From Halorubrum aethiopicum (GTDB lineage Archaea > Halobacteriota > Halobacteria > Halobacteriales > Haloferacaceae), in assembly GCF_001542905.1 (NCBI RefSeq), contig NZ_LOAJ01000001.1, positions 1,116,001-1,180,000 of the forward strand: a stretch of 64,000 nucleotides of DNA, in the 5' to 3' direction. Every line of letters begins with the position of its first letter. The first letter of the stretch is position 1. The notes under the pieces are model-generated. The model had not been told where the DNA came from, did not search any database, and was given only the letters and a program-made list of their open reading frames with translations. Positions 773-60,489 of the stretch are shown here, piece after piece. Position numbers and translations under genes: made by a program.

Positions 773-3727
<2,955 letters not shown>

Positions 3728-3834: not shown

Positions 3835-3876
3835 GGCACCCGCCACGGACCTACTGATACCCGCCACGAACCTACT
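3835..3876. repeat. Two tandem copies of a 21-bp repeat between uvrA and the phosphatase gene
   Basis: The 312-bp gap 3728-4039 separates the divergent uvrA and phosphatase genes. It contains two adjacent 21-bp units (3835-3855 and 3856-3876) differing at 3 positions and sharing a CCCGCCACG-A-CCTACT core; a third unit starts and decays at 3877. The rest of the gap shows no gene. The repeat lies over 100 bp from either start codon, so a role as a regulatory array is only a possibility. Confidence 0.5.
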
Positions 3877-4039
3877 GGCACGCACGACGTGCCGGTACGG
3901 ACGCCTCCATAGCCGTCATAGCAACCGTTTACCGTGACTCCGCCTCACCGCGACGTACGGACCACGCCGCCGGAGAGGCGCCCCCGAGGCGCGAACCGAC
4001 CGCCGGCCGCGACGGTCACCGACCCACTACCGTCCCACC

Positions 4040-4483: not shown

Positions 4484-4518
4484 CCCGGTCCGCCGGCGAT
4501 CGGATCGCCTTCGCCCCG

Positions 4519-41098: not shown

Positions 41099-42154
41099 TT
41101 ATCGATCGGGAGTTACGCCGTGTCCCGGACCGCCGATGTCGTGGATCGGGCCCTCGCCGCTCTCGACGACGTCCTCGGCCAGTAGTCGGTTGCCGTCGAG
41201 ATCGACGTACGAGAACGCTCCCAGTCCGGCGACGACGTGGGCGCTGGTGTGGATGCCGATCGAACTCTCCAACATACAGCCGACCATCAGATCGAGGTCC
41301 GCACCGTTCGCGATGGCGGCGATCTCCGCGACCGCGAGCGGGCCGGATTTCCCCAGCTTGACGTTGATGATGTCGGCCGCCTCCTCGCGCACGACGCGGA
41401 CCGCGTCTTGGGGCGTGAAGACGGTCTCGTCGGCCGCGATAGGGACGTCAATGCGACGACGTGCGTCCGCGAGCCCCGCGAGATCACTCGCCAGGACGGG
41501 CTGTTCGATCAGTTCGAGGCGTATCCCCTGCCCCGCGACGCGATCCGCGAACAGCGCCGTCTCCTTCGGGCTCCATCCCTGGTTGGCGTCGACCTTCAGT
41601 GCCGCGTCCGGCGCGGCCTCGCGTATCGCGGCCACCCGCTCTACGTCCGCGTCTAGGTCGTTTCCCGTCTTGATCTTCAGATGGTCGTACCCGTTCCCGG
41701 CCGCCTCCTCGGCTCGCTTTCTGGCGGTCTCCGGGTCGACGATCGGTATCGTCATGTCCGTCTCCACGGGCGAGGGTGTGCCGCCGAACAGCTCCGAGAG
41801 CGCGACTTCCCGCTCCCGACAGAACGCGTCGAGAACGGCCGTTTCGACCGCGAACGTTGCGGAGACCATGCCGGGGAACGTGTTCCGCACCCGGTTCACG
41901 ATGTCCCGGTACTCGCCGACCGCACGGCCCTCGACGATATCCGCGGCGGCACGTGCCGTCGCGACCGCCGCCTCGCGCGTTTCTCCAGTCACGGGCGGAA
42001 GGGGAGATCCTTCGCCGTACCCCTTCACGCCTTCCTCGGTCTCGACCGTGACGAGCACGTTCGAGGCCTCGTGTTGGACGCCGAGCGAGATCTCGAACGG
42101 TTCGGAGAGGGGGAGGTCGAGCGGTTCCACGGTGACGTCGACGACGGTACTCAC
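41099..42154 (-). CDS. dgcA: Enolase-superfamily epimerase (DgcA / dipeptide epimerase-like)
   Basis: 351 residues from a GTG at 42154, which overlaps the TGA of the upstream DUF1611 gene (4 bp) and is set by coupling. Motifs of the MLE subgroup are YDHLKIKTG (KxK), KVDANQGW, LIEQPV, IAADET and INVKLGKSGP, providing the two catalytic lysines and metal-binding Asp/Glu/Asp. In marine bacteria the pair DgcN (DUF1611) and DgcA turns D-glutamate into N-acetyl-D-glutamate and then N-acetyl-L-glutamate. The same gene pair here points to that activity; dipeptide epimerase is the alternative. Confidence 0.8.
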   Translation of the reverse strand: MSTVVDVTVEPLDLPLSEPFEISLGVQHEASNVLVTVETEEGVKGYGEGSPLPPVTGETREAAVATARAAADIVEGRAVGEYRDIVNRVRNTFPGMVSATFAVETAVLDAFCREREVALSELFGGTPSPVETDMTIPIVDPETARKRAEEAAGNGYDHLKIKTGNDLDADVERVAAIREAAPDAALKVDANQGWSPKETALFADRVAGQGIRLELIEQPVLASDLAGLADARRRIDVPIAADETVFTPQDAVRVVREEAADIINVKLGKSGPLAVAEIAAIANGADLDLMVGCMLESSIGIHTSAHVVAGLGAFSYVDLDGNRLLAEDVVESGEGPIHDIGGPGHGVTPDR

Positions 42155-43233
42155 GCTCCACCCCCCGTCGTTCCGGTCGAAGCCTCGGGTTGTAAGGCGT
42201 CCTGGACCGCGCCGAGGAGGTCCCGCGAACCGTCCTCGTCGTAGACGTTCGCTACCGGGTATTCGTGACGGCCGCGTTCCGTCTCGGGATCCCCCCAGGT
42301 CGAGATCCCGGCGATGGTGGCATCGGAGAGCGTTTCGACGAGTTCCGCCTCCTTCTCGACGCCGTCGACCCGAAATCGATCGAAGTGTGTCCGTCGCGTT
42401 CGCTCCGGATCGTCGGCGAGGACGACCGCGTCGGGCCACGATCCGTGTAGCACTCCGAGCGTGACACTGGAATACGCACGATGGGTGAGCGACGCCTGTC
42501 CCTCCACGAAGACGATGTCGTGTTCCGCTCCCACCGACTTCACCATGTCCTCGACGACGCCGCCCGTGAAGTCGGCCGGAACGCGGTCGACCACGACCCC
42601 TTCGTGTGCGCCGACCATGATGCCCGTTTGTCCGGTGGCGACCCATCCCGCGTCGAGGCCCGCCTCGCGGGCCGCCTGATAGAGTTCGAACGTCGTCGTG
42701 CGCTTGCCGACCGCACAGTCGGTTCCGAGCGTGAGAACCACGTCGGCGTCGACGTCGTCGACCGATCCGTCCCCGACGCGGAGCGCGTCCTCCTCGGGGG
42801 GCTTCCGTACATCGAGGATGCGGGCGTCGTGTTCGTCGGCCAACCCTGACCAGTGTTCGTCGTCGTCGAGGAAGTAGTGAAGTCCGCTCACGACGTCACA
42901 GCCGGCTCGAATGGCGTCCTCGATGTCTCCGACCCACGCGTCGGGGAGCTGCCCTCCCGCCGGCGCGACGCCGATGACGAGTGCTTCGACTTCCGGAGCG
43001 ATGTCGAGAGCGTCGGCCACGGATTCCACGATCGGAATATCGGGTGCGTCGCGTTTCTCGAGGGCTTCGGCCGGCGTCTGGCCTGCCGTTTCCGAGTCGA
43101 CTACCGCCCGGACGTCGAACACCTCGCTGTGTGTGACGACCCCGTTTGCCGTCTTTCCGCCTTTCTTCCCGAACTCCCCTTCCGCGAGGACGACGGCGGG
43201 CGCCGGGACGTCGAACGTGTCTCGAAGGTTCAT
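42151..43233 (-). CDS. dgcN: DUF1611 protein, D-glutamate N-acetyltransferase-like (DgcN)
   Basis: 360 residues. N-terminal VVLAEGEFGKKGGKTANGVV, then VEALVIGVAPAGGQLPDAWV, and the P-loop-like DVVLTLGTDCAVGKRTTTFEL, followed by TGQTGIMVGAHEGVVVDRV and HDIVFVEGQASLTHRAYS. These are hallmarks of DUF1611. DgcN of Pseudoalteromonas acetylates D-glutamate before epimerisation by DgcA. The gene overlaps dgcA and lies 91 bp after the second enolase-family gene, probably in one operon with it and the deacylase. Substrate assignment is inference from the pair. Confidence 0.82.
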   Translation of the reverse strand: MNLRDTFDVPAPAVVLAEGEFGKKGGKTANGVVTHSEVFDVRAVVDSETAGQTPAEALEKRDAPDIPIVESVADALDIAPEVEALVIGVAPAGGQLPDAWVGDIEDAIRAGCDVVSGLHYFLDDDEHWSGLADEHDARILDVRKPPEEDALRVGDGSVDDVDADVVLTLGTDCAVGKRTTTFELYQAAREAGLDAGWVATGQTGIMVGAHEGVVVDRVPADFTGGVVEDMVKSVGAEHDIVFVEGQASLTHRAYSSVTLGVLHGSWPDAVVLADDPERTRRTHFDRFRVDGVEKEAELVETLSDATIAGISTWGDPETERGRHEYPVANVYDEDGSRDLLGAVQDALQPEASTGTTGGGA

Positions 43234-43324
43234 TGGGTACGAGACCGTCCTTCCCGTTCAGGCAAAACCCTACAACCTTCCATGATGGGTCCTCGATGGC
43301 CTCCGGTTCAGGTCGAACGACGAT

Positions 43325-44461
43325 TCAATCGGTCCGGTACCGTTCGACCGCCGAATCGTCCAACGTCACTCCGAGGCCCGGATCCCTCGGGACCGTGAAG
43401 CGGCCTCCCGAGGCGCTCCACACCTCCGGGTCCTCGATGAGCGTCGACGCCGCGTGGACGTTCAGGGCACCGGACGGATAGGTGATCGCCGGCGACGACG
43501 CCGCGAAGTGAGCGTTTGCGGCCATCCCGACTCCGAGCTCGAGCATCGTTCCCATGAAACAGGGGAGTCCGTGCGCGCTCGCGACCGTCGCGACGTCGCG
43601 CGCACGCGAGAGCCCGCCGGTCTTCGCGAGCTTGATGTTGACCACGTCACAGGCGTCTCGTCGGGCGAGATCGGCGACGTCCGCCGGGGAGAAACAGGCC
43701 TCGTCGGCCAACACCGGCACGCCCGTCGCCTCCCGTACCCGCCGGAGCCCCGCGATGTCGTCGTAGGGTACCGGCTGTTCCACCAGAACGAGTCCGCCGG
43801 CCGCCTCGTCGAGGACGGGAACGCGACGCACCGCCTCCGCGGCCGACCACCCTTGGTTGGCGTCGACGCGGATCCTCGCGTCGGGAACCGCGTCGGCGAT
43901 CGCCGCGATCGCCTTCCGCTCGGCCTCGAAGTCCGGGCCACCGACCTTCACCTTGAAGGCGGTGAACCCCTCCTCGCGGCCCTCGATCGCGAGTTCACGG
44001 ACTTCCTCCGGCGAACGGATGCCGATGGAGTAGTGGAGGGGTATCGTCGGATCGCCGTCGGGCGCGCCGCCGAGCAGATCGTACACCGGGAGGTCCCGTA
44101 ACTTCCCCAACGCGTCGTACAGTGCCATGTCGACGCCGCTGATCGGGAACGGCTCCCCCGAGAGCGTCCGCTCCGCCCGGTCGACGACCCGCGGGATGCG
44201 GTGGAGCGGCTCCCCCTCGACGAGCGGCGCGAGACGGTCTTCGATCAGGTCCACGACCGCACGCTGTGTCAGCCCGTGCGGCCACGTCGACAGCGGCGCG
44301 ACCTCCCCGACGCCCGTGACGCCGGCATCGGTCTCGACGCGGACGAGGACGTGATCGTACGACCCTTCCCCGCCGGTCGCCACGGAGAGGCTCGTCTCGT
44401 AGGACGTCTCCACCGGTACCGACACCGGAACCGTCTCGACGCCGGTGACCGTGGCGCTCAT
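43325..44461 (-). CDS. Mandelate racemase / muconate lactonizing-type enzyme (enolase superfamily)
   Basis: 378 residues. Catalytic features: FTAFKVKVGG (KxK), IRVDANQGWSAAEA, VLVEQPVPYDD, PVLADEACFSP and VVNIKLAKTGGLSRA. The lysine pair on opposite sides fits 1,1-proton transfer racemases such as N-acylamino-acid racemase and dipeptide epimerase. Its ATG overlaps the stop of the upstream N-acyl-D-amino-acid deacylase (ATGA, 44458-44461). The coupling suggests that the enzyme handles N-acyl amino acids, converting one enantiomer for deacylation or the reverse. Confidence 0.85.
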   Translation of the reverse strand: MSATVTGVETVPVSVPVETSYETSLSVATGGEGSYDHVLVRVETDAGVTGVGEVAPLSTWPHGLTQRAVVDLIEDRLAPLVEGEPLHRIPRVVDRAERTLSGEPFPISGVDMALYDALGKLRDLPVYDLLGGAPDGDPTIPLHYSIGIRSPEEVRELAIEGREEGFTAFKVKVGGPDFEAERKAIAAIADAVPDARIRVDANQGWSAAEAVRRVPVLDEAAGGLVLVEQPVPYDDIAGLRRVREATGVPVLADEACFSPADVADLARRDACDVVNIKLAKTGGLSRARDVATVASAHGLPCFMGTMLELGVGMAANAHFAASSPAITYPSGALNVHAASTLIEDPEVWSASGGRFTVPRDPGLGVTLDDSAVERYRTD

Positions 44462-46053
44462 GCGCCGATCACGTCTCCGGGCCGCGCGCCGGTGTGGTCG
44501 CCGTCTTCGACGACGAACTCCCCGTTGACGAGGACGTGCTCCACGCCGGCGGGGTAGACGGCGGGGTCGAGGAAGTCCCCGGTCTGTTCGACGGTCTCGG
44601 GGTCGAACACCGTCAGGTCGGCGCGGGCGTCCCGCTTCACCACGCCGCGGTCGTCGAGCCCCAACCGCGAGGCGGGCATGCCCGTCATCTTGTGGACGGC
44701 GCGCTCGAGCGGGATCACGCCCTCCTCGCGGACGTACTTGCCGAGCACTTGGGGGAACGTCCCGTAGTTCCGCGGGTGCGGAACGCCCTCGCCGAGCGGC
44801 CCGGACTGACGGAGCGAGGAGCCGTCGCTGCCGACCATGGTGAGGTCGTGGCGCATCACCGTTCGGACGTCCGCCTCGTCCATGCCGAAGTTGACGTGCA
44901 TGGTCCGGTTCTCGTCCTCGAGGACGATGTCGAGGAGGATCTCGGCGGGGGGACGCTCCTCCCCGTCCCGGGACGCGAGTTCGGCGATCGTCTTCCCCTC
45001 ACACTCCTTCAGGTCGGAGTTCTGGACACCCGTCACGAGGATGCCGTCCCAATTGCTCGTGCGATCTGCCTTCAGGTCGTCGCGGATCCGGGCTCGAGTC
45101 TCGGGCTCGCGGAGCCGCTCGAGGAGCGCGTCGTCGCCTCCGTCGTGGGCCCAGTTGGGGAGGAGAGCTCCGAGGCTCGTCGAGGAGGCGACGTACGGGT
45201 ACTGGTCACACTGTACGTCGATCCCCTCCCGCTGGCGAACGAGCTCCATCCGGCGGAGGGTGGCCCTGACCTTGCCCCAGTTGTCGGGGCCGATGGCCTT
45301 GTGGTGGGACACCTGTACCGGGATGTCCGCCCGGCGGCCGATCTCGATGGTCTCCTCGACGCTCTCGATGAGGCCGTCGCTCTCGGAGCGCATGTGGGTG
45401 GCGTAGAAGCCGCCGTGGTCGGCCGCGACCTCGGCGAGCGCGACCACCTCGTCGACGTCGGCGTAACACCCCGGCGGGTAGAAGAGGCCGGTGGAGAGCC
45501 CGACCGCGCCGTCCGCCATCGCCTCGGCGACGAGGTCGCGCATCTCGTCGAGTTCGTCGCCCGACGGAGCGCGGTCCTCGTGGCCCACGACGGCCGCGCG
45601 GACGTTCCCGTGACCGACGAGCGACCCGACGTTGAGCGAGAGGCCGTCCGCCGCGAGGAACTCGAGGTAGTCCGCCATCGAGTCCCACTCGTCGGGGTCG
45701 ACCGACCCGCCGAGTCCGTTGCTCTCGAACCAGTCGTCGACGGAGCGGGCGGCCGCCCCGTACCGCGGCGCGGCGCTCGTCCCGCAGTTCCCGACGATCT
45801 CGAGGGTCACGCCCTGTCGGACCTTGCTGTGGGCGTCACGGTTCGCCGGGAGCGTGAAGTCGGAGTGGGTGTGGATGTCGATGAACCCCGGCGCGATCAC
45901 GTCGCCGTCGAGGTTCACCTCGGTATCCCCTTCGCCCGCGACCGCCCCGACCGCGGCGATCCGGCCGTCGGCGACCGCGACGTCCCCGCGGTACCACGGC
46001 GACCCGGTTCCGTCGACGATCCGTCCGTTCCGAAACACGTGTTCGTAGCTCAT
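44458..46053 (-). CDS. N-acyl-D-amino-acid deacylase (copy 1, Cys-type metal site)
   Basis: 531 residues of the amidohydrolase superfamily. Metal motif GFIDIHTHSDFTL (HxH), then EIVGNCGTSAAP, which keeps the cysteine ligand known from Alcaligenes D-aminoacylase, VSHHKAIGPDNWG, and a C-terminal MVGSDGSSLRQ aspartate and HPRNYGTFPQVLGKYVREEG. The enzyme hydrolyses N-acyl-D-amino acids to D-amino acids. It is first of a four-gene minus-strand set with the enolase-family enzyme and the DgcN/DgcA pair. The other three deacylases in this window have QDG instead of NCG. Confidence 0.9.
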   Translation of the reverse strand: MSYEHVFRNGRIVDGTGSPWYRGDVAVADGRIAAVGAVAGEGDTEVNLDGDVIAPGFIDIHTHSDFTLPANRDAHSKVRQGVTLEIVGNCGTSAAPRYGAAARSVDDWFESNGLGGSVDPDEWDSMADYLEFLAADGLSLNVGSLVGHGNVRAAVVGHEDRAPSGDELDEMRDLVAEAMADGAVGLSTGLFYPPGCYADVDEVVALAEVAADHGGFYATHMRSESDGLIESVEETIEIGRRADIPVQVSHHKAIGPDNWGKVRATLRRMELVRQREGIDVQCDQYPYVASSTSLGALLPNWAHDGGDDALLERLREPETRARIRDDLKADRTSNWDGILVTGVQNSDLKECEGKTIAELASRDGEERPPAEILLDIVLEDENRTMHVNFGMDEADVRTVMRHDLTMVGSDGSSLRQSGPLGEGVPHPRNYGTFPQVLGKYVREEGVIPLERAVHKMTGMPASRLGLDDRGVVKRDARADLTVFDPETVEQTGDFLDPAVYPAGVEHVLVNGEFVVEDGDHTGARPGDVIGA

Positions 46054-46803: not shown

Positions 46804-47304
46804 ATGGGATTACGGGACATACTCGACGCGGCCGAGGCGGTCGGAGATCGCGACGAGGTCCGTCAGTCGACGTTCCGCGAGGAGTTCGAAGCGTACGAGG
46901 CCGGCGAGACGGAGTCGTTTCCTCGAACCCGGGAGGCCATCGCCGACGAACGAGCGGCGCTCGAGGAGCTGGCCGACGAACTGGACGCCGAGGAAGGGAA
47001 CATCGATCAGCTGATCGAACGAACTGAGTTCTTCACCGTGGATCAGGCGGTCCGCCACCGAGAGCAGACGATCGAAAAGCTGGAGGCACACAACGAACAC
47101 CTCCGGGAGTTCCACGACGCGATGACCACGGCACTAGAGCGGATCGAGACGAACCTCTCGGAGCTGGAGTCGAGCGGCCCGGGATCGATCGAGGAGGACC
47201 CACAGCCACAGTTCGAGCGTGCTCACGACGCCTTGGACGACCACAACGAGGCGGTCGAGGACCTGAGTACCAATCTCACGATCCTGAACGCGTACCTCCG
47301 GTAG
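46804..47304 (+). CDS. Coiled-coil protein of unknown function
   Basis: 166 residues, almost wholly helical and acidic, with long heptad-like stretches (EERAALEELADELD-type, RHREQTIEKLEAHNEHLREF, ALERIETNLSELESSG, ALDDHNEAVEDLSTNLTILN). No signal peptide or TM. It precedes the peptide transporter by 189 bp on the same strand. No family recognised; a scaffolding role is possible but unsupported. Confidence 0.7.
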   Translation: MGLRDILDAAEAVGDRDEVRQSTFREEFEAYEAGETESFPRTREAIADERAALEELADELDAEEGNIDQLIERTEFFTVDQAVRHREQTIEKLEAHNEHLREFHDAMTTALERIETNLSELESSGPGSIEEDPQPQFERAHDALDDHNEAVEDLSTNLTILNAYLR

Positions 47305-47493: not shown

Positions 47494-49248
47494 ATGACTA
47501 CCAATCGACGTAGTTTCATGCGGAAGATGGGCGCCGCCGGGGCGGCCATCGGTAGTGTCAGCATAGCGGGGTGTTCCGGGGAGCAAACCACCACGACCCA
47601 AGGAGACGACGGATCGGGTGGTGGCGGCGGATCGGATGCCCGAGTGGTGGAGGAGGACCTTCCCGAAGAGCGGATGATGGACGACGTGATCCACCTCGCG
47701 TACACCGAACAGTACAACCCCGGGCGCTACCAGGCGAACCAGTACGTCGACCAACGTCTCACCGACGAGATGGGGATCCCGACGGTGACGGATCCGGTGG
47801 AGGCGACCGTGGTCGCCTCACGCGAGGAGTCGGGCGAGTACGACATCGTCACCTACCGGTGGAGCGCGAACAACGGCGAGCCTGACAGCATCATCGTCCC
47901 GCGGTTCGCGTCCGACGGCTCCCAGAACTGGACGGGCTTCTCCAGCGAGGAGTACGACGAGATCGCCTACGAGCAGCGACAGGAGACGGACCGGGAGGCC
48001 AGACAGGAGCTCGTTCATCAGGCACAGGACATCATCGGCGAGCAACGCCCCGAGAACCAGTTCCTGTTCAACGAGTACTACTACGCGTTCCGAAGCGACC
48101 GGTTCGAGGAGGACTCGGTCGTCGTGACGGACACGGGGCTGCGAAACATCTGGAACTACACCCAGATCGAGCCGAAAAACGAGGAGGGGAACACCATCGT
48201 CACCAACAACTGGGACCCCTCCGACCAGCTCAACCCCCTCAACGCCAACGCCATCGGCCCGAGTCGGAACTGGACGCCCACGCGGTTCATGCACGACATG
48301 CTCATCCGGACGGGACCGGAGCTCGAAGCTCAGCCGTGGGCGGCGACGGAGTGGGAGTGGGAGGACGACACCACGGTCACCTTCCAGCTCCGCGAGGGGA
48401 TGACGTTCCACGACGGGGAACCGGTTACCGCAAGCGACGTGGTGTGGACCTACCAGCTGATGCTCGACCTGGAGCCGCCGGCGTACCTCAACAACGTCGT
48501 TCAGGTCGTCGACAGCGTCGAGCAGGACGGCGACTACACGGTGACGTTCTCCCTCGAGGAGCCGTACGTTCCGTTCATCAAGACCACCGCGGGGATCGTC
48601 CCCATCCTCCCCGAACACTACTGGACGAGCCTGATGGAGGAGACGGGGACGACCGAGCAGCCCTGGCAGATCTCGATCACCGACGACAGACCCGTCGTCG
48701 GCTCCGGCCCGTTCCAGTGGGGAACGTGGGACCAGGGGTCGCGGTTCGAGATGCCGTCGTTCGACGACCACTTCATGGCGCCGAACATCGACATGCGGAT
48801 CCAGCGGCCGCTGTCGACCACCGACGCCGAATACGAGGCGCTGCTCAACGGCGACTACGACCTGCTCGACTACTGGTTCGGAGACACCGAACAGCTCGCG
48901 GGGGCCGTCGAGGAGAACGACTTCCTGAGCTCCATCGAGACGCTCGGAGTGGGTCGCCAGTCGGCGTGGGTCAACTGCCAGCGCCCGCCGTTCGATCACG
49001 TCCCGATGCGGCAGGCGTTCAACGCGGTGGTCAACGACTCACAACAGACCATCATCAACGAGGCGTTCGACGGCTACGGACAGGAGGCACGCACGTTCAT
49101 CAACCCCTCGTTGTCGTTCTGGCACAACGAGGACACGACGTTCTTCGACGGCGGGATCGAGGGAGCGACGACGATCCTCGCGGACGCCGGTTACGTGTGG
49201 GACAGCGACGGGAACATCCACTACCCGGAAGGAATGACCGGGAAGTGA
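47494..49248 (+). CDS. Peptide ABC transporter substrate-binding lipoprotein with permuted domain order
   Basis: 584 residues. The signal TNRRSFMRKMGAAGAAIGSV has the twin arginine, and SIAGCSG is the lipobox, so it is a Tat lipoprotein. A Gly/Thr linker follows. Residues about 65-226 look like the C-terminal lobe of family-5 binding proteins (YDIVTYRWSANNGEPDSIIV, NWTGFSSEEYDEIAYEQRQE, RPENQFLFNEYYYAFRSDRF). Residues about 233-584 look like the N-terminal lobe (NNWDPSDQLNPLNANA, QLREGMTFHDGEPVTASDVV, VPMRQAFNAVVND) and stop at the hinge (ADAGYVWDSDGNIHYPE). The order is thus reversed with no frameshift. Start ATG 47494 chosen for the Tat signal; an ATG 18 bp upstream is less likely. Confidence 0.85.
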   Translation: MTTNRRSFMRKMGAAGAAIGSVSIAGCSGEQTTTTQGDDGSGGGGGSDARVVEEDLPEERMMDDVIHLAYTEQYNPGRYQANQYVDQRLTDEMGIPTVTDPVEATVVASREESGEYDIVTYRWSANNGEPDSIIVPRFASDGSQNWTGFSSEEYDEIAYEQRQETDREARQELVHQAQDIIGEQRPENQFLFNEYYYAFRSDRFEEDSVVVTDTGLRNIWNYTQIEPKNEEGNTIVTNNWDPSDQLNPLNANAIGPSRNWTPTRFMHDMLIRTGPELEAQPWAATEWEWEDDTTVTFQLREGMTFHDGEPVTASDVVWTYQLMLDLEPPAYLNNVVQVVDSVEQDGDYTVTFSLEEPYVPFIKTTAGIVPILPEHYWTSLMEETGTTEQPWQISITDDRPVVGSGPFQWGTWDQGSRFEMPSFDDHFMAPNIDMRIQRPLSTTDAEYEALLNGDYDLLDYWFGDTEQLAGAVEENDFLSSIETLGVGRQSAWVNCQRPPFDHVPMRQAFNAVVNDSQQTIINEAFDGYGQEARTFINPSLSFWHNEDTTFFDGGIEGATTILADAGYVWDSDGNIHYPEGMTGK

Positions 49249-49302: not shown

Positions 49303-50286
49303 ATGGTTAACAAACGATACATCGCTCGGCGTCTCGCGTTGATGGCGCTCTCGATATTCGTCGTCATCACGATCCTGTTTTTCCTCTTCAGACAGGTTCC
49401 AGGCGGTCCGATGTCGGCGTTCACGAACCCTCGGATGAGCCAGGCGGCGCGACAGGCGATCATCGAACAGTACGGCCTGAACGACCCACTCTGGCGACAG
49501 TACCTCCGGTACATCGTGAACGTGGCTCAACTCGACTTCGGCCAGTCGTTCTACTACGGGACCTCGGTGTCGTCGCTCATCTTCGACCGGTTCGTGAACA
49601 CGATGAGCCTGATGCTGACGGCGTTCGTCATCTCGTACACCATCGGTACGTATCTCGGCGCACAGCTCGGCTGGCTCCGGGGCACGACGAAGGAACGTGC
49701 CGGGATGGTGGTCGTGCTGTTCGTCCGCTCGATGCCGGTGTTCTGGACGGGGATGGTCGTTCTCTACGTATTCTCGTTCCAGCTGGGTCTCTTCCCGATC
49801 GGCGGGATGCGGGGCACGGGCGCGAGCTACACCACGATGGCGGAGAAGTTCCTCAGCACGGACTTCCTGTATCACGTGGCCTTGCCGGTGTTCACGTTGT
49901 GTACGTACTACACGGGATTGCCGCTGTTGTTGATGCGGAACAACCTCTTGGAAGTCCTTTCCGAGAGCTATATCGATACGGCACGCGCCAAGGGACTCAC
50001 CAGTCGACGAGTCCTGTTCGTCCACGCGGCACGCAACGCCATCCTCCCGGTAGTGACGGCGTTCGCGATCGCGATCGGTTTCGCGGTCGGCGGACAGGTG
50101 TTGATCGAGACCGTCTACTCGTGGCCCGGGCTGGGTCGCGAGATGGTTCAGGCGTCGCTTCGAAGCGACTACCCCGTCGCACAGGCCGCGTTCGCTCTTC
50201 TGTCCGTGATCGTCATCACGATGAACTTCGTCGCGGACATCGCGTACACGTACCTCGATCCGCGGGTCAGTCTGGGTGAAAGCTAA
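49303..50286 (+). CDS. Peptide ABC transporter permease (DppB/OppB type)
   Basis: 327 residues with six TM segments starting RRLALMALSIFVVITILFFL. Typical features are the N-terminal FRQVPGGPMSAF with a periplasmic loop (QYGLNDPLWRQYLRYIVNVA), and the EAA loop LSESYIDTARAKGLTSRRVL near the C-terminus, which contacts the ATPases. It follows the binding protein by 54 bp and precedes the second permease by 1 bp, in one operon. Confidence 0.93.
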   Translation: MVNKRYIARRLALMALSIFVVITILFFLFRQVPGGPMSAFTNPRMSQAARQAIIEQYGLNDPLWRQYLRYIVNVAQLDFGQSFYYGTSVSSLIFDRFVNTMSLMLTAFVISYTIGTYLGAQLGWLRGTTKERAGMVVVLFVRSMPVFWTGMVVLYVFSFQLGLFPIGGMRGTGASYTTMAEKFLSTDFLYHVALPVFTLCTYYTGLPLLLMRNNLLEVLSESYIDTARAKGLTSRRVLFVHAARNAILPVVTAFAIAIGFAVGGQVLIETVYSWPGLGREMVQASLRSDYPVAQAAFALLSVIVITMNFVADIAYTYLDPRVSLGES

Positions 50287-50287
50287 C

Positions 50288-51235
50288 ATGAGCGAAGAAA
50301 CGGATACGGGCGGAAGGGCCGTGGCCGACTCGACGAAAACCAAACAGGGATGGCGTCGATTCCTCCACAACCTCAAGCGATCGAGCCGCGAACAGGCGCA
50401 GCTGTTCGTCCAGTCCCGAATGGCGGTGGCCGGACTACTGATCATCCTGTTTTATCTCGTGCTCGCAGTGATCTCGCCGTACATCATCCCGTACGGTCCG
50501 TACGAGCGGATCTACATGCTCGACGGCTCGTGGGCGTCGCTCCAACCGCCGTCGCTCGCGCATCCGCTCGGGACGACGGACTCGGGATACGACGTACTCT
50601 CACAGCTGCTCTTGGGATCGCGTATCGCGATGTTCGTCGGTATATTGGGTGCGTTCATGGTGGCCGTGATCGGCACGACCGTCGGTATCGTCGCCGGCTA
50701 CTACGGCGGCTGGATCGACGAGATCGTGATGCGGCTCGTGGACATCCTCTACGGGCTCCCGTTCATCCCGTTCGTCATCGTTCTCGCGACGGTGTTCGGC
50801 GCGAGCGTCTGGAACATCATCATCGGCGTCGCCCTGTTGTACTGGCTCTCGACCGCCCGCGTGATCCGGTCGGAAGTGTTGACGGTCCGCGAGCGGCCGT
50901 ACGTCGAGGCCGCCGAGGCCGCCGGTGCATCCGACTTCCGCATCATGACGGTCCATATCCTTCCGAACGTCATTCCGCTGTCGGCGCTGTACGCCGCCAT
51001 CGCGGTGGGGTACTCCATCGTCGCCCAGGCGAGCGTGGCGTTTCTCGGGTTCGGCGACCCGGCGGTCCCCTCGTGGGGCGTGATGCTCCAACGGGCGTTC
51101 GTGACCCAGTCGTTCGGACAGGCTTGGTGGTGGACCATTCCGCCGGGACTTTCGATCACGCTGGTCGTGATGGGCGCGTACCTCGTCGGTCGCGGATACG
51201 AGGAAGTCGTCAACCCGCAGCTACAGGAGAAATAA
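50288..51235 (+). CDS. Peptide ABC transporter permease (DppC/OppC type)
   Basis: 315 residues from MSEETDTGGRAVADSTKTKQ; an in-frame ATG 12 bp upstream overlaps the first permease and is less likely. A cytoplasmic N-terminus of about 45 residues with FLHNLKRSSREQAQLFVQSR precedes TM1 and the OppC-type motif PSLAHPLGTTDSGYDVLSQL. The EAA loop is RPYVEAAEAAGASDFRIMTV. Pairs with the first permease to form the membrane channel. Confidence 0.93.
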   Translation: MSEETDTGGRAVADSTKTKQGWRRFLHNLKRSSREQAQLFVQSRMAVAGLLIILFYLVLAVISPYIIPYGPYERIYMLDGSWASLQPPSLAHPLGTTDSGYDVLSQLLLGSRIAMFVGILGAFMVAVIGTTVGIVAGYYGGWIDEIVMRLVDILYGLPFIPFVIVLATVFGASVWNIIIGVALLYWLSTARVIRSEVLTVRERPYVEAAEAAGASDFRIMTVHILPNVIPLSALYAAIAVGYSIVAQASVAFLGFGDPAVPSWGVMLQRAFVTQSFGQAWWWTIPPGLSITLVVMGAYLVGRGYEEVVNPQLQEK

Positions 51236-51236: not shown

Positions 51237-52322
51237 ATGAAACAAGCAACAGCGACCTTCGACTTCGACGACGACGCACCGTTACTGGCCGTCGAGGACG
51301 CCGTCGTGACATACTCGACGAGCAGCGGCGACCTCACCGCGGTCGACGAGATCAGCTTCTCGGTCGACGAGAACGAGATATTCGGTCTGGTCGGGGAATC
51401 CGGCTGTGGGAAGAGCACGGTCGCACAAGCGATACTGAGCCTGCTTCCGACCAACGGCCGTATCTCCTCCGGCTCCGTCCGATTTCGCGGAGTCGAACTG
51501 ACCGAGCTGTCGAAACGAGAGCTCGACGCGCTCCGCTGGGAGCACTTCTCGCTCATCAGTCAGGGTGCGATGAACGCACTCAATCCGGTTCATAGGATAT
51601 CCAATCAGATCGTCGAGGCGATCCAGGCCCATCGGGACGTCTCCACCGACGAGGCGCGAGAGCGGGTGGCGGAGCTGTTCGAGGTGGTGGGGCTCGATCC
51701 GGACCGCATGGACGACTACCCGCACCAGTTCTCCGGCGGGATGAAACAGCGGGCGTACATCGCGATGTCGCTCGCACTCGATCCCGACCTCATAATCGCC
51801 GACGAGCCGACTACGGCGCTCGACGTCATCGTTCAAGACCAGATCCTCAAGCGATTGAAGCAGCTGCGCGACGAGCTCGGGATCTCCGTCATCATCATCT
51901 CCCACGACATCAGCGTCATCGCGGAGACCTGTAATCGCCTCGGAGTGATGTACTCCGGGAAGCTGATGGAGTACGGTAATCTCAAGGAGATCTTCGCGAA
52001 CCCGTACAACCCGTACACGCTGGGATTACAGAACGCCTTCCCCACGCTTCGCGGCGACCAGTCGGATCTCATCAGCATCCCGGGAAGCCCGCCGGACATC
52101 GCGGACCTGCCCGACGGCTGTCGATTCATGGACCGATGTCCCTTCGCTACCAGCGAGTGTGCGACCGAGCACCCGCCGCTGGAGACGGTCGGCGAGGACC
52201 ACGCGTCGGCGTGTTACCATCACGACTCGGTCGAACGGATGCGCGAGGACTCGAAGGAGCGGGAGACGTGGAACCGGACGGGAGCCGACGTCGCAACCTC
52301 CGGAGGTGTCGGCGATGACTGA
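51237..52322 (+). CDS. Peptide ABC transporter ATPase (DppD/OppD type)
   Basis: 361 residues. Walker A LVGESGCGKSTVAQAI, Q-loop MNALNPVHRISNQI, signature QFSGGMKQRAYIAMSLALDP, Walker B DLIIADEPTTALDV, and H-loop IIISHDISVIAETC. The C-terminal oligopeptide ATPase tail has CRFMDRCPFATSECATEHPP, a cysteine-rich motif typical of this branch. The TGA overlaps the next ATPase gene by 8 bp (52315-52322), so the two are translationally coupled. Confidence 0.95.
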   Translation: MKQATATFDFDDDAPLLAVEDAVVTYSTSSGDLTAVDEISFSVDENEIFGLVGESGCGKSTVAQAILSLLPTNGRISSGSVRFRGVELTELSKRELDALRWEHFSLISQGAMNALNPVHRISNQIVEAIQAHRDVSTDEARERVAELFEVVGLDPDRMDDYPHQFSGGMKQRAYIAMSLALDPDLIIADEPTTALDVIVQDQILKRLKQLRDELGISVIIISHDISVIAETCNRLGVMYSGKLMEYGNLKEIFANPYNPYTLGLQNAFPTLRGDQSDLISIPGSPPDIADLPDGCRFMDRCPFATSECATEHPPLETVGEDHASACYHHDSVERMREDSKERETWNRTGADVATSGGVGDD

Positions 52323-53487
52323 GGAGGCGTCCACTGCCGACGGTGACGATCCCGAGTACATCATGGAGTGTGAGGGGTTGAAAAAGTACTTCAATACGGA
52401 ACAGGGGCTTCTCGGCGGACTGTTCGGCGGAGCGGACCAAGTCCGCGCCGTCGACGGGATCGATCTCCAGATCGAGAAGGGGGAGATCGTCGGCCTCGCG
52501 GGCGAATCGGGCTGTGGAAAGACGACGGCCGGCAAGACGCTCATCCGTCTGCTCGACTCGACGGAGGGGACCATCCGGTTCCGCGGCCGCGACGTGACCG
52601 ACATCACCGGATCGGAGCTTCAGCAGTTCCGTCGGGACGTCCAGATCATCTTCCAGGACCCCTTCGAGAGCCTGAACCCGCGGATGACCGTGTACGACGC
52701 GGTCGTCGAACCGCTGAAGATCCACGGGATCGACGGGGATGAACGGTACGAACGGGTCGTCGAGGCGCTCGAACGGGCGGAACTCACCCCGCCGGAGACG
52801 TGGTTCGAGAGCTATCCACATCAGCTCTCCGGCGGCGAGCGACAACGGGTCGCCATCGCTCGTGCCCTCGTGCTCGAACCGGACTTCCTGTTGGCCGACG
52901 AGCCGGTGTCGATGCTGGACGTCTCGATCCGCGCCGGCGTCCTCGGTCTGCTCCAGCGGCTGAACGAGGAACTCGATCTGACGATCCTCTTCATCAGCCA
53001 CGACCTCTCGTTGCTCCGACAGGTGTGTGATCGGATCGGCATCATGTACTTGGGACGGATCATCGAGTCCGGGGAAACGGAGCGGATAATCAGTAACCCG
53101 GTTCACCCCTACGCGAAGGCGCTGATCGGGGCCGCTCCGGAACCCGATCCGTTTCGGGAACGCGAACACGTCGAGATCCAGGGGTCGATCCCCGACCCGA
53201 TCAACCTGCCGAGCGGTTGTCGGTTCAAGGGTCGGTGTCCGGAACGGGAGGCGATCTGTGACCACGTCGACCCGGGCCTCCGACCGATCGAGGTCGAGGG
53301 CGAACCCGGATCGAAGCGCGAGGTCGCCTGTCACGCCTACTACGAGGACGACGACGCCGCTGCCTACGAGTCGGAACTCCGGTCGATGGACTCGGTTCCG
53401 GAGGACGTGAAAGCGGAGCCGCACCGAGCGGTCCCGCTCGAAGAAACGCAGGACTCCGACCTCGAGTCGGACGTCACGGCCTACTGA
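52315..53487 (+). CDS. Peptide ABC transporter ATPase (DppF/OppF type)
   Basis: 390 residues. Walker A LAGESGCGKTTAGKTLIRLL, Q-loop FQDPFESLNPRMTV, signature QLSGGERQRVAIARALVLEP, Walker B LLADEPVSMLDVS, H-loop FISHDLSLLRQVC. The Cys-rich tail CRFKGRCPEREAICDHVDPG is complete. The acidic extension after it (EDDDAAAYESELRSMDSV) is haloarchaeal. Start at ATG 52315, chosen because it overlaps the stop of the DppD-type gene and the preceding frame is not protein-like. Confidence 0.95.
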   Translation: MTEEASTADGDDPEYIMECEGLKKYFNTEQGLLGGLFGGADQVRAVDGIDLQIEKGEIVGLAGESGCGKTTAGKTLIRLLDSTEGTIRFRGRDVTDITGSELQQFRRDVQIIFQDPFESLNPRMTVYDAVVEPLKIHGIDGDERYERVVEALERAELTPPETWFESYPHQLSGGERQRVAIARALVLEPDFLLADEPVSMLDVSIRAGVLGLLQRLNEELDLTILFISHDLSLLRQVCDRIGIMYLGRIIESGETERIISNPVHPYAKALIGAAPEPDPFREREHVEIQGSIPDPINLPSGCRFKGRCPEREAICDHVDPGLRPIEVEGEPGSKREVACHAYYEDDDAAAYESELRSMDSVPEDVKAEPHRAVPLEETQDSDLESDVTAY

Positions 53488-53580: not shown

Positions 53581-55116
53581 TCAGTCCCAGTCCGGATACA
53601 TCCCGTCGTCCATCTCGTCGAGCGGGAACTGTGGCCGGCGGATCCGGTCGAACTCGAACTTCCGCGGATCCATCGCGACGAGCCCGATGCTGTTGATCGG
53701 GATGACTTCGCTCGACATCGGCTCGTAGTCCGCCCGGAAGTGGTTGGTGCTCTTGACGGTCAACACGTCGAGTCGCTCGGGTTGGATCCCCACATGCCGC
53801 CAGATCTCGGCGTCCAACGGCTGCATGCGGTTCTCGGTGACGATCACGGAAACGCCGTCGTCGCGGCCGCACTGGAGGTGGATCCCCGTACCGAGGTGGT
53901 TCTCGCTTCCCGTACCCATCGGTCCGGTGTTGCGGAACTCCCCGTCGGTGATCGCCTTCACGTAGCCGTCGAGGCCCGCGATCGGGTCGCCGTGTTTGTC
54001 GTCGGTCTTCCCGCCGAGATCGACGGTCACACGCTCTCCCACGCCCGCCTCGACGCAGGCGTCGACCACCTCGGGATCACGGATGACGGCGAACCCGGCG
54101 TTCGTCAGCCCCTGATCGATCATCTCTCGGAGGACGGTGGTCCCGTCCGCGGCCCCGCCGCCGCCGGGATTGTCCCCGACGTCGGCCATCACGACCGGGC
54201 CGGCGTTCGCGTCGAGTCCGTCGAGAAGTCGGCGCGCCTCCGCGACCGCCTCGTCGGGTTCGGGGTAGTTACCGACGAAATCCTCCCGGCGCTCCCAGAC
54301 GTGTGCGGCCAGCTCACGGGAGATCTCGCGGGCGAGATCGGGATCGTCGTCGGTCACGACCGGGATCGAAAAGCCCATCGACGGGACGTCGGCTTGATGG
54401 AACCCTGGGAACACGTTTACCTTTACCACTCCGTCTCGTTCCTCGTACTCCCGGGCGAGCCCCATCACCTCGGCCATCGGTCCTTCACGCGTGTTCTGTT
54501 TGGGACCGAAGGGCAGAACCGGCGGGCGTTCGATGGCCATCGTCGGCTCGATCTCGCCACGCATCGTTCGGGTGAGGTATCGCATCGCACGGCGGCCGGT
54601 GTCGCCCATGTCCGTGTGCGGATACTCCTCGTAGGCGACCAGAACGTCCGCCTCGTCCACGAGCTGGTCGGTGTTGTTGCCGTGGAGATCGAGAGTCACG
54701 GCGATCGGGACGTCCGGACCGACCCGTTCGCGGACCGCGGCCACCAGCGGTCCCTCGCCGTCGTCCATCCCTTCCGGAACCATCGCACCGTGGAGACAGA
54801 GACAGACCCCGTCCAGCTCGTCGGCGTGTTCCTCGACGCCGTCCAGGATCTGCTGTGTGTAGAAGTCGTAGGCGTCCGACGCGACGACGCCGCTGGGCGT
54901 CGCCGACGCGGACACGGTGTACCGGAGATCGACCCCTTCCTTCTCCGCGACCTCCATCGCGCCCCCCTCACAGGTGTTGGTTCCTCCCATCCGTTCGGGG
55001 ATCTCCTCTCCGAAGTACTCCCGACGCTCCTGGAACAACGACCGACCGGTTCGCCCGCTCGCGAACGTGTTCGTCTCGTGAGCGAAACCCCCGATCAAAA
55101 CTGTCTCGTTTGACAT
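53581..55116 (-). CDS. M81 family metallopeptidase (MlrC-like)
   Basis: 511 residues from MSNETVLIGGFAHETNTFAS. N-terminal DUF1485-type features include GFAHETNTF, CLCLHGAMVPEGMDD, PIAVTLDLHGNNTDQ and YEEYPHTDMGDTGRRA, with the metal-binding His/Asp set. The C-terminal MlrC domain has VVMADVGDNPGGGGAADGTT and VKSTNHFRADYEP. MlrC degrades linearised microcystin, a peptide rich in D-amino acids; family members elsewhere are uncharacterised. Convergent with the transporter operon and divergent from deacylase copy 2 (168-bp gap). It fits the D-amino-acid theme of the region. Confidence 0.88.
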   Translation of the reverse strand: MSNETVLIGGFAHETNTFASGRTGRSLFQERREYFGEEIPERMGGTNTCEGGAMEVAEKEGVDLRYTVSASATPSGVVASDAYDFYTQQILDGVEEHADELDGVCLCLHGAMVPEGMDDGEGPLVAAVRERVGPDVPIAVTLDLHGNNTDQLVDEADVLVAYEEYPHTDMGDTGRRAMRYLTRTMRGEIEPTMAIERPPVLPFGPKQNTREGPMAEVMGLAREYEERDGVVKVNVFPGFHQADVPSMGFSIPVVTDDDPDLAREISRELAAHVWERREDFVGNYPEPDEAVAEARRLLDGLDANAGPVVMADVGDNPGGGGAADGTTVLREMIDQGLTNAGFAVIRDPEVVDACVEAGVGERVTVDLGGKTDDKHGDPIAGLDGYVKAITDGEFRNTGPMGTGSENHLGTGIHLQCGRDDGVSVIVTENRMQPLDAEIWRHVGIQPERLDVLTVKSTNHFRADYEPMSSEVIPINSIGLVAMDPRKFEFDRIRRPQFPLDEMDDGMYPDWD

Positions 55117-55284
55117 GTCCGTTCGTCCCGACCACTCCCGGTTAAAGTCGGGACCTATCATGGTCAGGGGTGTCCCGCCGACGCCGAATCGGTGACCACC
55201 CGTGAATGTGAGGTAGTGGTGTTAGGTGTCCCACACTCCGTGCGTTCGTATGGTGATGCCTGTTCGAATCGAGAGGGTAGATCG

Positions 55285-56880
55285 ATGACTAACGACGTGC
55301 TTCTCGAGAACGCTCGGATCGTCGACGGAACGGGCGCACCGTGGTTCCGCGGTGCCGTGACCGTCGACGATGGCCGGATAACGGACGTGATCCGGGGTGA
55401 CGTCGACGTCGCGGCGAACGAGTCCGTCGACGTGGAGGGAAAGGTGGTGTGTCCGGGATTCATCGATACGCACTCGCATTCGGATCTGGAACTGTTCGCG
55501 GATCCCACGCTCGCGCCCAAACTCAGACAGGGGATCACCACCGAGATACTGGGCCAGGACGGCTTTTCCATGGCTCCGATGTATCGCGACGGCGGTGCCG
55601 ACCAGTGGGCACGGCACCTCTCGGGACTCGCCGGCGACGTCGACGTCGAGTGGGACTGGGGAAGCGTCGCCGACTACCTCGACGCCGTCGAGGACGACGG
55701 GATCGCACCCAACGTGGCCACGCTCGTGGGGCACGGAACCGTTCGGTTCGACGTGCTCGGAATGACCGATCGTGCCCCCACCGACGACGAACTCGAGGAG
55801 ATGTCGTCGCTCGTCGCCGACGCGCTGGAGGACGGGGCGATCGGCTTCTCGACCGGACTCGTCTACTCGCCGCAAGTGAACGCATCGACCGAGGAGACAC
55901 AGCGTCTCGCCGCCGAACTCGAACCGTACGGACGACCGTTCGTCGCACACATCCGGAGCGAGGGACGGTGGATCTGGGAGGCGCTCGACGAGTTCGTCGA
56001 CATCGGTGCCGACGAGAACGTTCCGCTTCACCTCTCACACTTCAAGGTCTCGGGAACCGAACAACACGGGAAGGCCGGACGGGCGACGGAGCTCGTCGAG
56101 ACCGCCCGTGAACGGGGAGTCGACCTCACGGCCGAACAGTACCCCTACACGGCCGGTAACACCCTTCTTTCCGCGGTTCTCCCGCCGTGGGTTCACGCGG
56201 AAGGCCCCGACCACGTACTCGACGTCCTTCGAGACGAGACGGCCAGAGAGCGGATCCGTCGTGACATCGAGGAGTGGCGCATCGACGGATGGGAAAACCA
56301 GGGCGCTCGCTCCGGCTGGGAGAACATCGTCGTCCGCAACCTCGAAACCGAGACGTGGCGCGAGTACGAGGGGGAGTCCGTCGCCGACATCGCCTCGGAC
56401 CGCGATCAGAACCCCGTCTTCACCGTCTGTGACGTCCTCCTCGACGAGGAGCTGTCACCGGCCATGATCCTCCACACGGTCACCGAGCCCGACGTACGCG
56501 ACATCATGGCAAGCGAACGGGTCGGCATCGCCACCGACGGGCTGTTCGGCGCGTATCCTCACCCCCGGACGTACGGGACCTATCCCCGCGTTCTGGGGAC
56601 GTACGTCCGTGAGGAGAATCACCTCTCTCTGGAGGACGCAGTCAGGAAGATGACGTCGCTTCCGGCGCGTGCGATGGGACTCGACCGGAAGGGCGTCCTC
56701 CGGCCGGGGATGGACGCCGACCTGGTCGTGTTCGATCCGGTCACCGTGGAGAGTCGGGCGACGTTCGAGAACCCGCGACGCTTCCCATCAGGGGTTCCTC
56801 ACGTCATGGTCGACGGTACCTTCGTCGTCCGGGATGACGAAGTGACCGATGCGCGACCGGGGACCGCGATCAAAAAATAA
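55285..56880 (+). CDS. N-acyl-D-amino-acid deacylase (copy 2, QDG-type)
   Basis: 531 residues from MTNDVLLENARIVDGTGAPW; the frame is open 93 bp further upstream but this ATG gives the standard family start. Metal-site HxH is in GFIDTHSHSDLELF, then EILGQDGFSMAPMYRDGG, where QDG stands in place of the NCG of copy 1. LHLSHFKVSGTEQHGK holds a later histidine, and ATDGLFGAYPHPRTYGTYPR the catalytic aspartate. Two DNA blocks (55304-55367 and 55434-55520) are identical to copy 4. It is divergent from the M81 gene and convergent with the D-amino-acid aldolase-like gene. Confidence 0.9.
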   Translation: MTNDVLLENARIVDGTGAPWFRGAVTVDDGRITDVIRGDVDVAANESVDVEGKVVCPGFIDTHSHSDLELFADPTLAPKLRQGITTEILGQDGFSMAPMYRDGGADQWARHLSGLAGDVDVEWDWGSVADYLDAVEDDGIAPNVATLVGHGTVRFDVLGMTDRAPTDDELEEMSSLVADALEDGAIGFSTGLVYSPQVNASTEETQRLAAELEPYGRPFVAHIRSEGRWIWEALDEFVDIGADENVPLHLSHFKVSGTEQHGKAGRATELVETARERGVDLTAEQYPYTAGNTLLSAVLPPWVHAEGPDHVLDVLRDETARERIRRDIEEWRIDGWENQGARSGWENIVVRNLETETWREYEGESVADIASDRDQNPVFTVCDVLLDEELSPAMILHTVTEPDVRDIMASERVGIATDGLFGAYPHPRTYGTYPRVLGTYVREENHLSLEDAVRKMTSLPARAMGLDRKGVLRPGMDADLVVFDPVTVESRATFENPRRFPSGVPHVMVDGTFVVRDDEVTDARPGTAIKK

Positions 56881-56904
56881 CTCGCTTCTCCGTCGGCAGT
56901 TGCG

Positions 56905-58044
56905 CTATTTCACTTTCCCACGTGCTTGAACTGGCCAGAGCTCCTCGACACGATCCTCCCGTACGCCGACGATCGTATCGTGGAGATTGACGGTCGTACA
57001 GACGTGGGGAACGATGAACTCGATGCGGTCCCCGACCGCGAGTGACCCGTCTTTGTCAGTAGTGTCGAGCCAGCCGTGCTCCTCGGACGCGTTCACGTAC
57101 TCGACGTCGTCACGGTATCTGGGCACGGGCAGTTGCGACGTGTCCATCGAGAGCGTCTTGCTCCCGGCGTCGACGACCGCGCGGTCCTCGCTCGGCGCGG
57201 AGATCACCGTCGAGACGACGGTCGCCGCGCAGTCGTCCCGGTCGACCTCGAACGGTCGGTGCTCGAGCTCGCCCACGTCCATGAACGGGTACATCCCCGG
57301 GTTGATCTCGGTGACGACCGGGTGTTGCCCGCTGTATTTCGAGGTCGCGGTCCCGCCCACCTTGACTTCCGGGACGGCGATCCCGTCGGATTCCAGCAGG
57401 TCGACCGTCTCCTGTACGCGATCCATGGCCTCCGTACAGTACGTCTCGTACTCCGATCGCGTCTCGGCTTCGGACTTGACGTGGGCCTCGTAGGCGAGCA
57501 GCCCTCGGAGGTTCAGGTTCGGCTGCTCGCGAACGAACCGTGCCGTCTCCAGCGTGGATTCGCCCGGCGTGACTCCCGTGCGGTGTAATCCGACGTCGAT
57601 CTCCAGGATCACGTCGACGTCTTCGTCCCGGTCCGCCGCGGCTTCCTGAAGCGGATCGATGTTCCCCGGTCCGTCGACGGTCGTGGCGAACCGATCGAGC
57701 TTCTCCGACAACCGTACGAGCCGCTCAAGCTTTCGTGGGCCGACGACCATATACGAGAGATAGATGTCGTCGATGCCGTTCCTCGCCATGACCTCGACCT
57801 CGCTGAGGGTCTGACAGACGATCCCGCTTTCACCGCCGTACTCGCTCTGTCGTTTGGCGAGTTCGGCGTTTTTGTGCGTCTTGACGTGCGAACGGAGCCG
57901 GACGTCGTTCGCTTCCGCGAACGAGACGTAGTCTCGGACGTTCGACTCCATCGTGTCGAGATCGACCAACAGTGCCGGCGTCTCGATCTCGCCTTTCGGC
58001 GTACCTATCGCCGGTCGCATCTCCGCGGTCGTCGGGGTTGGCAT
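56905..58044 (-). CDS. PLP-dependent D-threonine aldolase / D-serine dehydratase-like enzyme
   Basis: 379 residues. Fold-type III alanine-racemase-like barrel: IETPALLVDLDTMESNVRDY, with the PLP-lysine in LRSHVKTHKNAELAK. LEIDVGLHRTGVTPGESTLE and VKVGGTATSKYS are typical further motifs. The C-terminal domain has SEEHGWLDT and VPHVCTTVNLHD, the His and Cys pair that bind the divalent metal in D-serine dehydratase and D-threonine aldolase. Products would be glycine plus an aldehyde, or pyruvate plus ammonia. The role fits degradation of deacylated D-amino acids. Confidence 0.87.
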   Translation of the reverse strand: MPTPTTAEMRPAIGTPKGEIETPALLVDLDTMESNVRDYVSFAEANDVRLRSHVKTHKNAELAKRQSEYGGESGIVCQTLSEVEVMARNGIDDIYLSYMVVGPRKLERLVRLSEKLDRFATTVDGPGNIDPLQEAAADRDEDVDVILEIDVGLHRTGVTPGESTLETARFVREQPNLNLRGLLAYEAHVKSEAETRSEYETYCTEAMDRVQETVDLLESDGIAVPEVKVGGTATSKYSGQHPVVTEINPGMYPFMDVGELEHRPFEVDRDDCAATVVSTVISAPSEDRAVVDAGSKTLSMDTSQLPVPRYRDDVEYVNASEEHGWLDTTDKDGSLAVGDRIEFIVPHVCTTVNLHDTIVGVREDRVEELWPVQARGKVK

Positions 58045-58416
58045 GACCGAAATACAAAAAACGACGACAAAAATCTTGCCGCCCGCTCGACGTCGTTTCC
58101 GGTTGGTGGCTCCCTATGAAACCCGGCCGTCCGCGACTTCTCTCCAGTAGGAGGTGGTCGTCTGTATGCTCTCGAAACGGTTTCCCGCATCATTAATTCG
58201 AATATACAGAAGAGTATTCAAAAACTTTGAAATGAACTAACACACTGACGCTCGATTTCTGTATAATGACATTTCCGTCGTCGGTTTTCGACTGCTTCTT
58301 CAAATAATCCGGACTAATGGACCTCTATATGGGACACACTGTTATAGACCCGAACCACTGTGATCTCCTATTATTCTTGGTAGTATCCATATGATTTCGT
58401 CACGACTGCCGAAACA

Positions 58417-58425
58417 TTTATTATA
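58417..58425 (+). promoter_or_regulatory. TATA box TTTATTATA in an AT-rich regulatory gap
   Basis: The 402-bp gap 58045-58446 between the divergent aldolase-like gene and the HTH regulator is AT-rich compared with its surroundings and contains no gene. TTTATTATA is centred 26 bp before the ATG at 58447, which decides that start: an ATG at 58432 lies only about 7 bp after the box. A weak inverted repeat GAATA-N10-TATTC sits at 58200-58219. Confidence 0.65.
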
Positions 58426-58446
58426 CTACATATGACGCCTGATGGC

Positions 58447-59172
58447 ATGGGAGAAGCCCTCAATAGATCATCAACTCCGATCCCCCGGACGTCGCAACTC
58501 GCGCTACGCATCTGGCATCCGGACTGTTGGACGCTACAAACGACCGCGGCCGTCGACGCCGGGCTCATCGCACACGGGGTCTACGAGTACGACGACATCG
58601 TGAGCGCGCGACTGACGGCCCACGCGGACACCACCGACCGGATCGACGACCTCGTGGCGGAGATCAAGGAATCGCCCTTGACCGAACGGGCCAAAGTGAT
58701 CAACGAGTACTTCAATCCCGGATTACAGACGAACCCGGCCGGAAACGCCACACAGGAGCTCCTCGTCGAATACGAGCCGGAGAACAGCATTCACGACGCC
58801 TTCGTCTCGCGCGGTTTCGTTCCCGAGGAGGAGATCCGGATGAACGACGGCTACGAGTACTGGACCGTCATCGTCCGCGCGTCCCGGAACACGATCCAGG
58901 AGCGGCTGGACGAGATCCGCCAGGAGATGGACGCCGAGATCCGGATCGAGGGAATGAAATCGGCCCAGACGACCACCGCTCAGTGCCAGCAAACCGACCA
59001 GTTGTCGGAACGACAGCGGGAGATCTTCGAGCTCGCACAGGAGGAGGGGTACTACATGTGGCCCCGCGAGACCTCCGCCACCGACCTCGCGGACGAGGTC
59101 GACATCTCGAAGACGACCTTCCTCGAACACCTCCGTAAAGCGGAGGCCAAGATCCTCGGCAAGATCGACTAG
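58447..59172 (+). CDS. Bat-type HTH_10 transcriptional regulator
   Basis: 241 residues from MGEALNRSSTPIPRTSQLAL; the ATG 15 bp upstream is less likely because of the TATA box at 58417. The C-terminal HTH_10 domain has QLSERQREIFELAQEEGYYM, WPRETSATDLADEVDISKTT and FLEHLRKAEAKILGKI. The N-terminal half (RIWHPDCWTLQTTAAVDAGL, LLVEYEPENSIHDAFVSRGF) is a typical regulatory domain of bacterioopsin-activator-like proteins. Position between amino-acid genes suggests control of this island, probably with an amino acid or acyl compound as signal. Confidence 0.9.
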   Translation: MGEALNRSSTPIPRTSQLALRIWHPDCWTLQTTAAVDAGLIAHGVYEYDDIVSARLTAHADTTDRIDDLVAEIKESPLTERAKVINEYFNPGLQTNPAGNATQELLVEYEPENSIHDAFVSRGFVPEEEIRMNDGYEYWTVIVRASRNTIQERLDEIRQEMDAEIRIEGMKSAQTTTAQCQQTDQLSERQREIFELAQEEGYYMWPRETSATDLADEVDISKTTFLEHLRKAEAKILGKID

Positions 59173-59241
59173 GTCTCGTCCCCGTCCGAGGCCGTCCATG
59201 AGAGGCGGTGGATTCTCTTCGTTCCCGCCCGATCGCAGTGT

Positions 59242-60471: not shown

Positions 60472-60489
60472 TCCCGACGGGAGCGTCAG

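Follow-up and report, generated by a model that had tools for sequence, protein, structure and literature searches.

Can a solute-binding protein whose front carries the features that normally close its family, and whose rear carries those that normally open it, be a genuine circular permutant? This question is raised by a gene in a stretch of 64,000 nucleotides from Halorubrum aethiopicum (contig NZ_LOAJ01000001.1, positions 1,116,001 to 1,180,000; hereafter the window). On its plus strand, an uninterrupted open reading frame (ORF) at 47494-49248 encodes 584 residues beginning MTTNRRSFMRK...SIAGC; a TTG upstream, at 47476, is a possible alternative start. Our analysis makes it very likely that the product is a family-5 (cluster C) solute-binding protein (SBP5) whose chain has truly been circularly permuted, that it serves the DppBCDF-type importer encoded downstream, and that it comes from an old permuted clade in a family where permutation has recurred.

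The order of the segments was established with profiles. Overall, the whole protein scored 193.7 bits against PF00496 (SBP_bac_5; gathering cut-off 32.4), in two stretches. When the two parts were scanned separately, the rear fragment matched profile positions 2-285 (E 8.3e-51; profile length 368) and the front fragment positions 290-367 (E 2.5e-5, 24 bits, below the cut-off), and therefore the segment order is reversed. With phmmer against DppA (1dpe), residues 278-567 matched DppA 45-340 and residues 74-188 matched DppA 357-473, both significantly. Residues 63-226 thus correspond to the usual closing part of the family (DppA 355-488) and residues 233-584 to its usual opening part (DppA 1-347), much as an earlier note on this DNA had claimed for residues of about 65-226 and 233-584; the separate alignments that it recommended refute a co-linear order. 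Split profiles placed segment N at 63-226, C1 at 233-428 and C2 at 430-580, so that every domain segment is present once. In this nomenclature the standard order is C1-C2-N and the permuted protein reads N-C1-C2; as the protein departs from the standard order, we filed it as a permuted variant of PF00496. Judged from the sequence, the old termini are joined, the new termini lie within the old chain and the remainder is conserved; the ring would presumably close in space.

The front segment was also identified without Pfam. A profile of it built from 13 homologues retrieved 65 sequences from the PDB at E<=0.01 (best E 8e-19). The 60 best of these 65 matches were of SBP5 type, nearly all in the C-terminal third (e.g. 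1dpe 355-488). AlphaFold2, given 17 homologues, predicted the whole chain as one confident fold, with a mean predicted local distance difference test score (pLDDT) of 82.8 and a predicted template modelling score (pTM) of 0.83. Within this model the front segment mostly reached a pLDDT of about 77-98, compared with a mean of 65.6 (pTM 0.48) when folded alone; a poor solo model is what one would expect of a part that depends on the remainder of the chain. Foldseek with the solo fragment returned SBP5 proteins at a root-mean-square deviation (rmsd) of about 11-13 Å, so only the identity of the matches was used. Together, these results reject an unrelated domain in the front 170 or so residues, the possibility that the earlier note had asked a structure prediction to check.

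Residues 232-584 superposed on DppA 1-347 with Z 22.2 and an rmsd of 2.8 Å over 324 residues (VIA-align). The model is consistent with the two-lobed fold of the family, the front part being placed by sequence profile only. Domain III of DppA spans roughly residues 261-478. The last residue of the permuted chain aligns with DppA 347, putting the break at about DppA 347/348, and therefore in a loop of lobe II and not at the inter-lobe hinge. A break at the hinge, where the earlier note had the chain stop, is ruled out by this alignment. According to the model, an ordinary two-lobed clamp would form, the two old termini would be connected by a short linker, and the new chain ends would sit in the lobe-II loop.

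Both the twin arginine and the lipobox cysteine of a twin-arginine translocation (Tat) lipoprotein can be recognised in the sequence, and R5, R6, A25, G26 and C27 are unchanged in 17 homologues; the NCBIfam TAT profile scored 14.4 bits on the 584-residue protein, slightly under its cut-off of 16.7. The protein is probably exported by Tat, in a folded state. The lipidated Cys27 would then tether it to the membrane, and the tether would exit lobe II, not lobe I.

How widespread is this order? The genome of the window holds seven SBP5 genes, of which six are permuted (Pfam survey, with the order confirmed by split profiles); the sole standard gene matches profile positions 2-364 in one piece. Full-length, co-linear orthologues with the permuted order occur across many genomes; identity is 95% to one in a second genome of the genus and 60% to one from a different genus. 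In a first classification with split profiles, 132 chains were permuted and 50 standard (183 classified); in a later one, 145 were N-C1-C2, 84 standard and 4 C2-N-C1. Permuted genes were found in 8 of 13 Halobacteria genomes (candidates checked with split profiles), where they make up about two fifths of the SBP5 genes as counted from profile ranges. Bacterial examples span several phyla and come from Martelella, relatives of Halomonas, Oceanobacillus, Halanaerobiales, Spirochaetaceae, Trueperaceae, Desulfobacteraceae and Stappia. Among the matches listed, nine of the ten locus-searched genomes gave one junction-spanning match each amid many standard ones, and the Nitrososphaeria genome gave two; 298 other Pseudomonadota genomes, with four candidates scored per genome, gave none among the best matches listed. 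In Halobacteria the N-C1-C2 order is widespread; in bacteria it turns up sporadically, chiefly in halophilic or marine ones. The permuted clade to which the gene belongs is old and shared between Halobacteria and some of these bacteria. On a contig labelled Enemella evansiae TN21-6 (L130), a permuted protein groups with alphaproteobacterial ones; this actinomycete-named contig is possibly mislabelled or contaminating.

A further order, C2-N-C1, was found in SBP5 proteins of Thermoproteota (L206, L212, L223, L224 and L271-L274). These proteins carry a C-terminal extension, at whose end several have a membrane anchor. Pfam agrees with this order, matching residues 19-244 of L224 to profile positions 145-360. 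With C1-C2-N, N-C1-C2 and C2-N-C1 all observed, all three rotations of a three-segment ring therefore exist.

Recent cases occur within the genus of the window. In the L258 subfamily, the gene is permuted in five genomes (66-100% identical) and has the standard order in four others, at about 65-70% identity. At permuted and standard loci alike the DppB gene follows downstream, and the signal regions of permuted and standard genes are up to 79% identical. The tree of this subfamily requires two permutations, both nested among standard genes on strongly supported branches. The cut falls in one loop in the L258 group and in another in the L298 group; one of the two groups ends before a helix that the other keeps at its C-terminus. 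Outside the tree, L259 and L260/L261 are apparent further cases. The unpermuted ancestor that the earlier note hoped for in related Halorubrum genomes was thus found for a sister subfamily and not for the gene itself, which belongs to the old clade. At L313 (G013:C1:408000-415000), a standard orthologue of the L258 subfamily is broken by stops, with C1-C2 and part of N in a 396-residue frame, and is perhaps decaying.

By which route could such genes arise? Locus L320 (G061:C1:2361500-2367800) contains a minus-strand ORF (614-5359) with two SBP5 copies in one frame, C1-C2-N-C1-C2-N, behind a single Tat-like signal. This fused tandem in haloarchaeon G061 is plausibly the intermediate type, from another subfamily and off the direct line. 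By such a route, a tandem duplicate would fuse in frame; if the leading C1-C2 and the final N were then lost, the result would be signal-N-C1-C2, the signal peptide being kept throughout. Duplication and loss would be the simplest route for recurrent permutations. Alternatively, the gene segment could have moved directly, which we consider unlikely. Consistent with direct movement, none of the 183 chains classified with split profiles has an N segment at both ends, the junctions are clean, and nothing left over was noticed downstream. Leftovers would, however, vanish quickly, and an in-frame fusion of the kind that duplication needs does exist in a haloarchaeon.

The duplication-and-loss reading concerns the origin of the gene; its role is suggested by its surroundings. 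By Pfam, the permuted gene is the first of a complete DppBCDF set, two permeases and two ATPases following the binding protein (Table 1). This set is surrounded by one DgcN-like gene, two epimerase-like genes of the enolase superfamily, three D-aminoacylase-type amidohydrolases, an M81 peptidase and a BhcC-like aldolase, all under the equivalog cut-offs. This gene island (41099-46053 on the minus strand, and 53581-62109) suggests D-amino-acid catabolism, and parts of it, recognised by sequence, recur beside orthologues L094 and L095. From these neighbours, together with work of 2023 as far as it is cited in PMC12363236, our tentative best guess is therefore that compounds containing D-amino acids are imported.

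Table 1. The permuted gene, its parts and its neighbours, in positions of the window.
Feature	Position	Strand	Basis
Circularly permuted family-5 solute-binding lipoprotein, order N-C1-C2, 584 residues	47494..49248	+	Open ORF, Pfam order
Twin-arginine signal (R5R6), lipobox ending at Cys27	47494..47574	+	Invariant residues in homologues
Segment N, residues 63-226 (usual SBP5 C-terminal part: second part of lobe II and lobe I C-terminus)	47680..48171	+	Split profile, PDB profile search
Short junction, old C-terminus to old N-terminus	48172..48189	+	Gap between N and C1 profile matches; low pLDDT at 221-224
Segment C1, residues 233-428 (usual SBP5 N-terminal part)	48190..48777	+	Split profile, E 1.4e-68
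Segment C2, residues 429-584, new C-terminus at DppA ~347	48778..49245	+	DppA superposition, split profile
DppB-type permease	49303..50286	+	PF00528, PF19300
DppC-type permease	50276..51235	+	PF00528, OppC_N
DppD-type ATPase	51237..52322	+	ABC_tran and oligo_HPY
DppF-type ATPase	52315..53487	+	ABC_tran and oligo_HPY; ATG start chosen from sequence within longer ORF 52159-53487
M81 metallopeptidase (MlrC family), convergent neighbour	53581..55161	-	PF07364, PF07171
DgcN-like (DUF1611), enolase-superfamily epimerase and amidohydrolase (D-aminoacylase-like) genes	42151..46053	-	All under NCBIfam equivalog cut-offs

In E. coli DppA, R383 and D436 (R355 and D408 of the mature protein) are required for dipeptide capture (PMC12136057) and neutralise the peptide termini (PMC12136057, PMC8566422). 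The permuted protein has E72 and N126 in these two columns and so lacks the arginine and aspartate of a dipeptide importer; a free dipeptide bound in the manner of DppA is therefore probably not the ligand. The same replacement could be taken as a sign that the protein binds its ligand for sensing or scavenging and not for the adjacent importer. We find this very unlikely, as the gene leads a complete BCDF set and the neighbourhood is repeated at L094 and L095. Directly upstream of the permuted gene, a 166-residue protein without a Pfam match is encoded at 46804-47304 (plus strand), and a similar ORF (332-886) precedes the L095 orthologue. Elsewhere in the window, 35220-36281 (minus strand) encodes a salactin homologue (PF25229, 587.7 bits).

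Could a single ancient permutation account for every N-C1-C2 protein, the scattered cases being due to transfer or tree error? We built the tree with the segments re-ordered and ran approximately unbiased (AU) tests on a 35-row set. Most permuted sequences do fall into one clade (113 of 117, Shimodaira-Hasegawa (SH) support 0.974), and several rows are long-branched. Nevertheless, the AU tests rejected all N-C1-C2 forms as one clade (p 0.0004) and also partial unions of permuted forms (p 0.011-0.025), values to be read with caution because of the long branches. With the same caution, one origin for all N-C1-C2 forms was rejected. The L258 and L298 groups branch among standard genes at separate places, with different loops cut, and C2-N-C1 is a different rotation altogether. 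A single origin is thus highly improbable. The reading of the earlier note, a permuted chain behind a retained Tat lipoprotein signal, holds up; the cut lies elsewhere, and the case is one of many.

Two last explanations have next to no probability: that of a truncated SBP5 behind an unrelated N-terminal domain draws on the weak Pfam score of the front fragment (24 bits against 32.4) and fails on the PDB profile matches in the C-terminal third, the SBP5 proteins returned by Foldseek and a fragment that is confident only inside the whole chain, while that of a misassembly, frameshift or pseudogene draws on the rarity of permutants among proteins generally and fails on the same order in many independent genomes, full-length co-linear alignments with homologues and a complete operon. 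Several points nevertheless weigh against a genuine permutant serving the importer and made by duplication. Aligners that keep chain order cover only residues 224-584 or so. Ring closure and the proximity of the old termini are inferred, and expression and a role in transport are predicted from the genes. No intermediate was found in the clade of the permuted gene itself. Some permuted members from bacteria and Thermoproteota look Sec-exported by eye, and Tat export is therefore not required for the arrangement.

No earlier description of permuted solute-binding proteins was found in the literature searched, in which subscription journals were thinly covered. Prior work linking the rearrangement of periplasmic binding proteins to duplication and domain swapping shares the theme and does not describe a natural family-5 permutant. 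What is new here is the breadth and recurrence of SBP5 permutation: a well-studied family contains a sizeable branch of permuted members, a third rotation in Thermoproteota and repeated recent events that seem unreported in that literature. It is conceivable, though we would not wager on it, that SBP5 is topologically labile, permuted many times and into every rotation, mainly in archaea, via fused tandem duplicates, the rearrangement being tolerated or even useful because the lipid anchor leaves lobe I for lobe II and Tat exports the protein folded. Pairs of permuted and standard genes at the same locus in one genus make the route and the cost of natural circular permutation testable. They are also a warning that co-linear domain models miss part of permuted proteins in annotation.

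Like the SBP_bac_5 proteins DppA, AppA, NikA and OppA, the permuted protein has all segments, a predicted two-lobed fold, lipoprotein export and BCDF partners. Unlike them, it has a rotated chain, new ends in the lobe-II loop and probably an anchor on lobe II, and the charged residues for dipeptides are not kept. Compared with E. coli DppABCDF (PMC12136057), the set of five subunits is the same, with E72 and N126 in place of R383 and D436.
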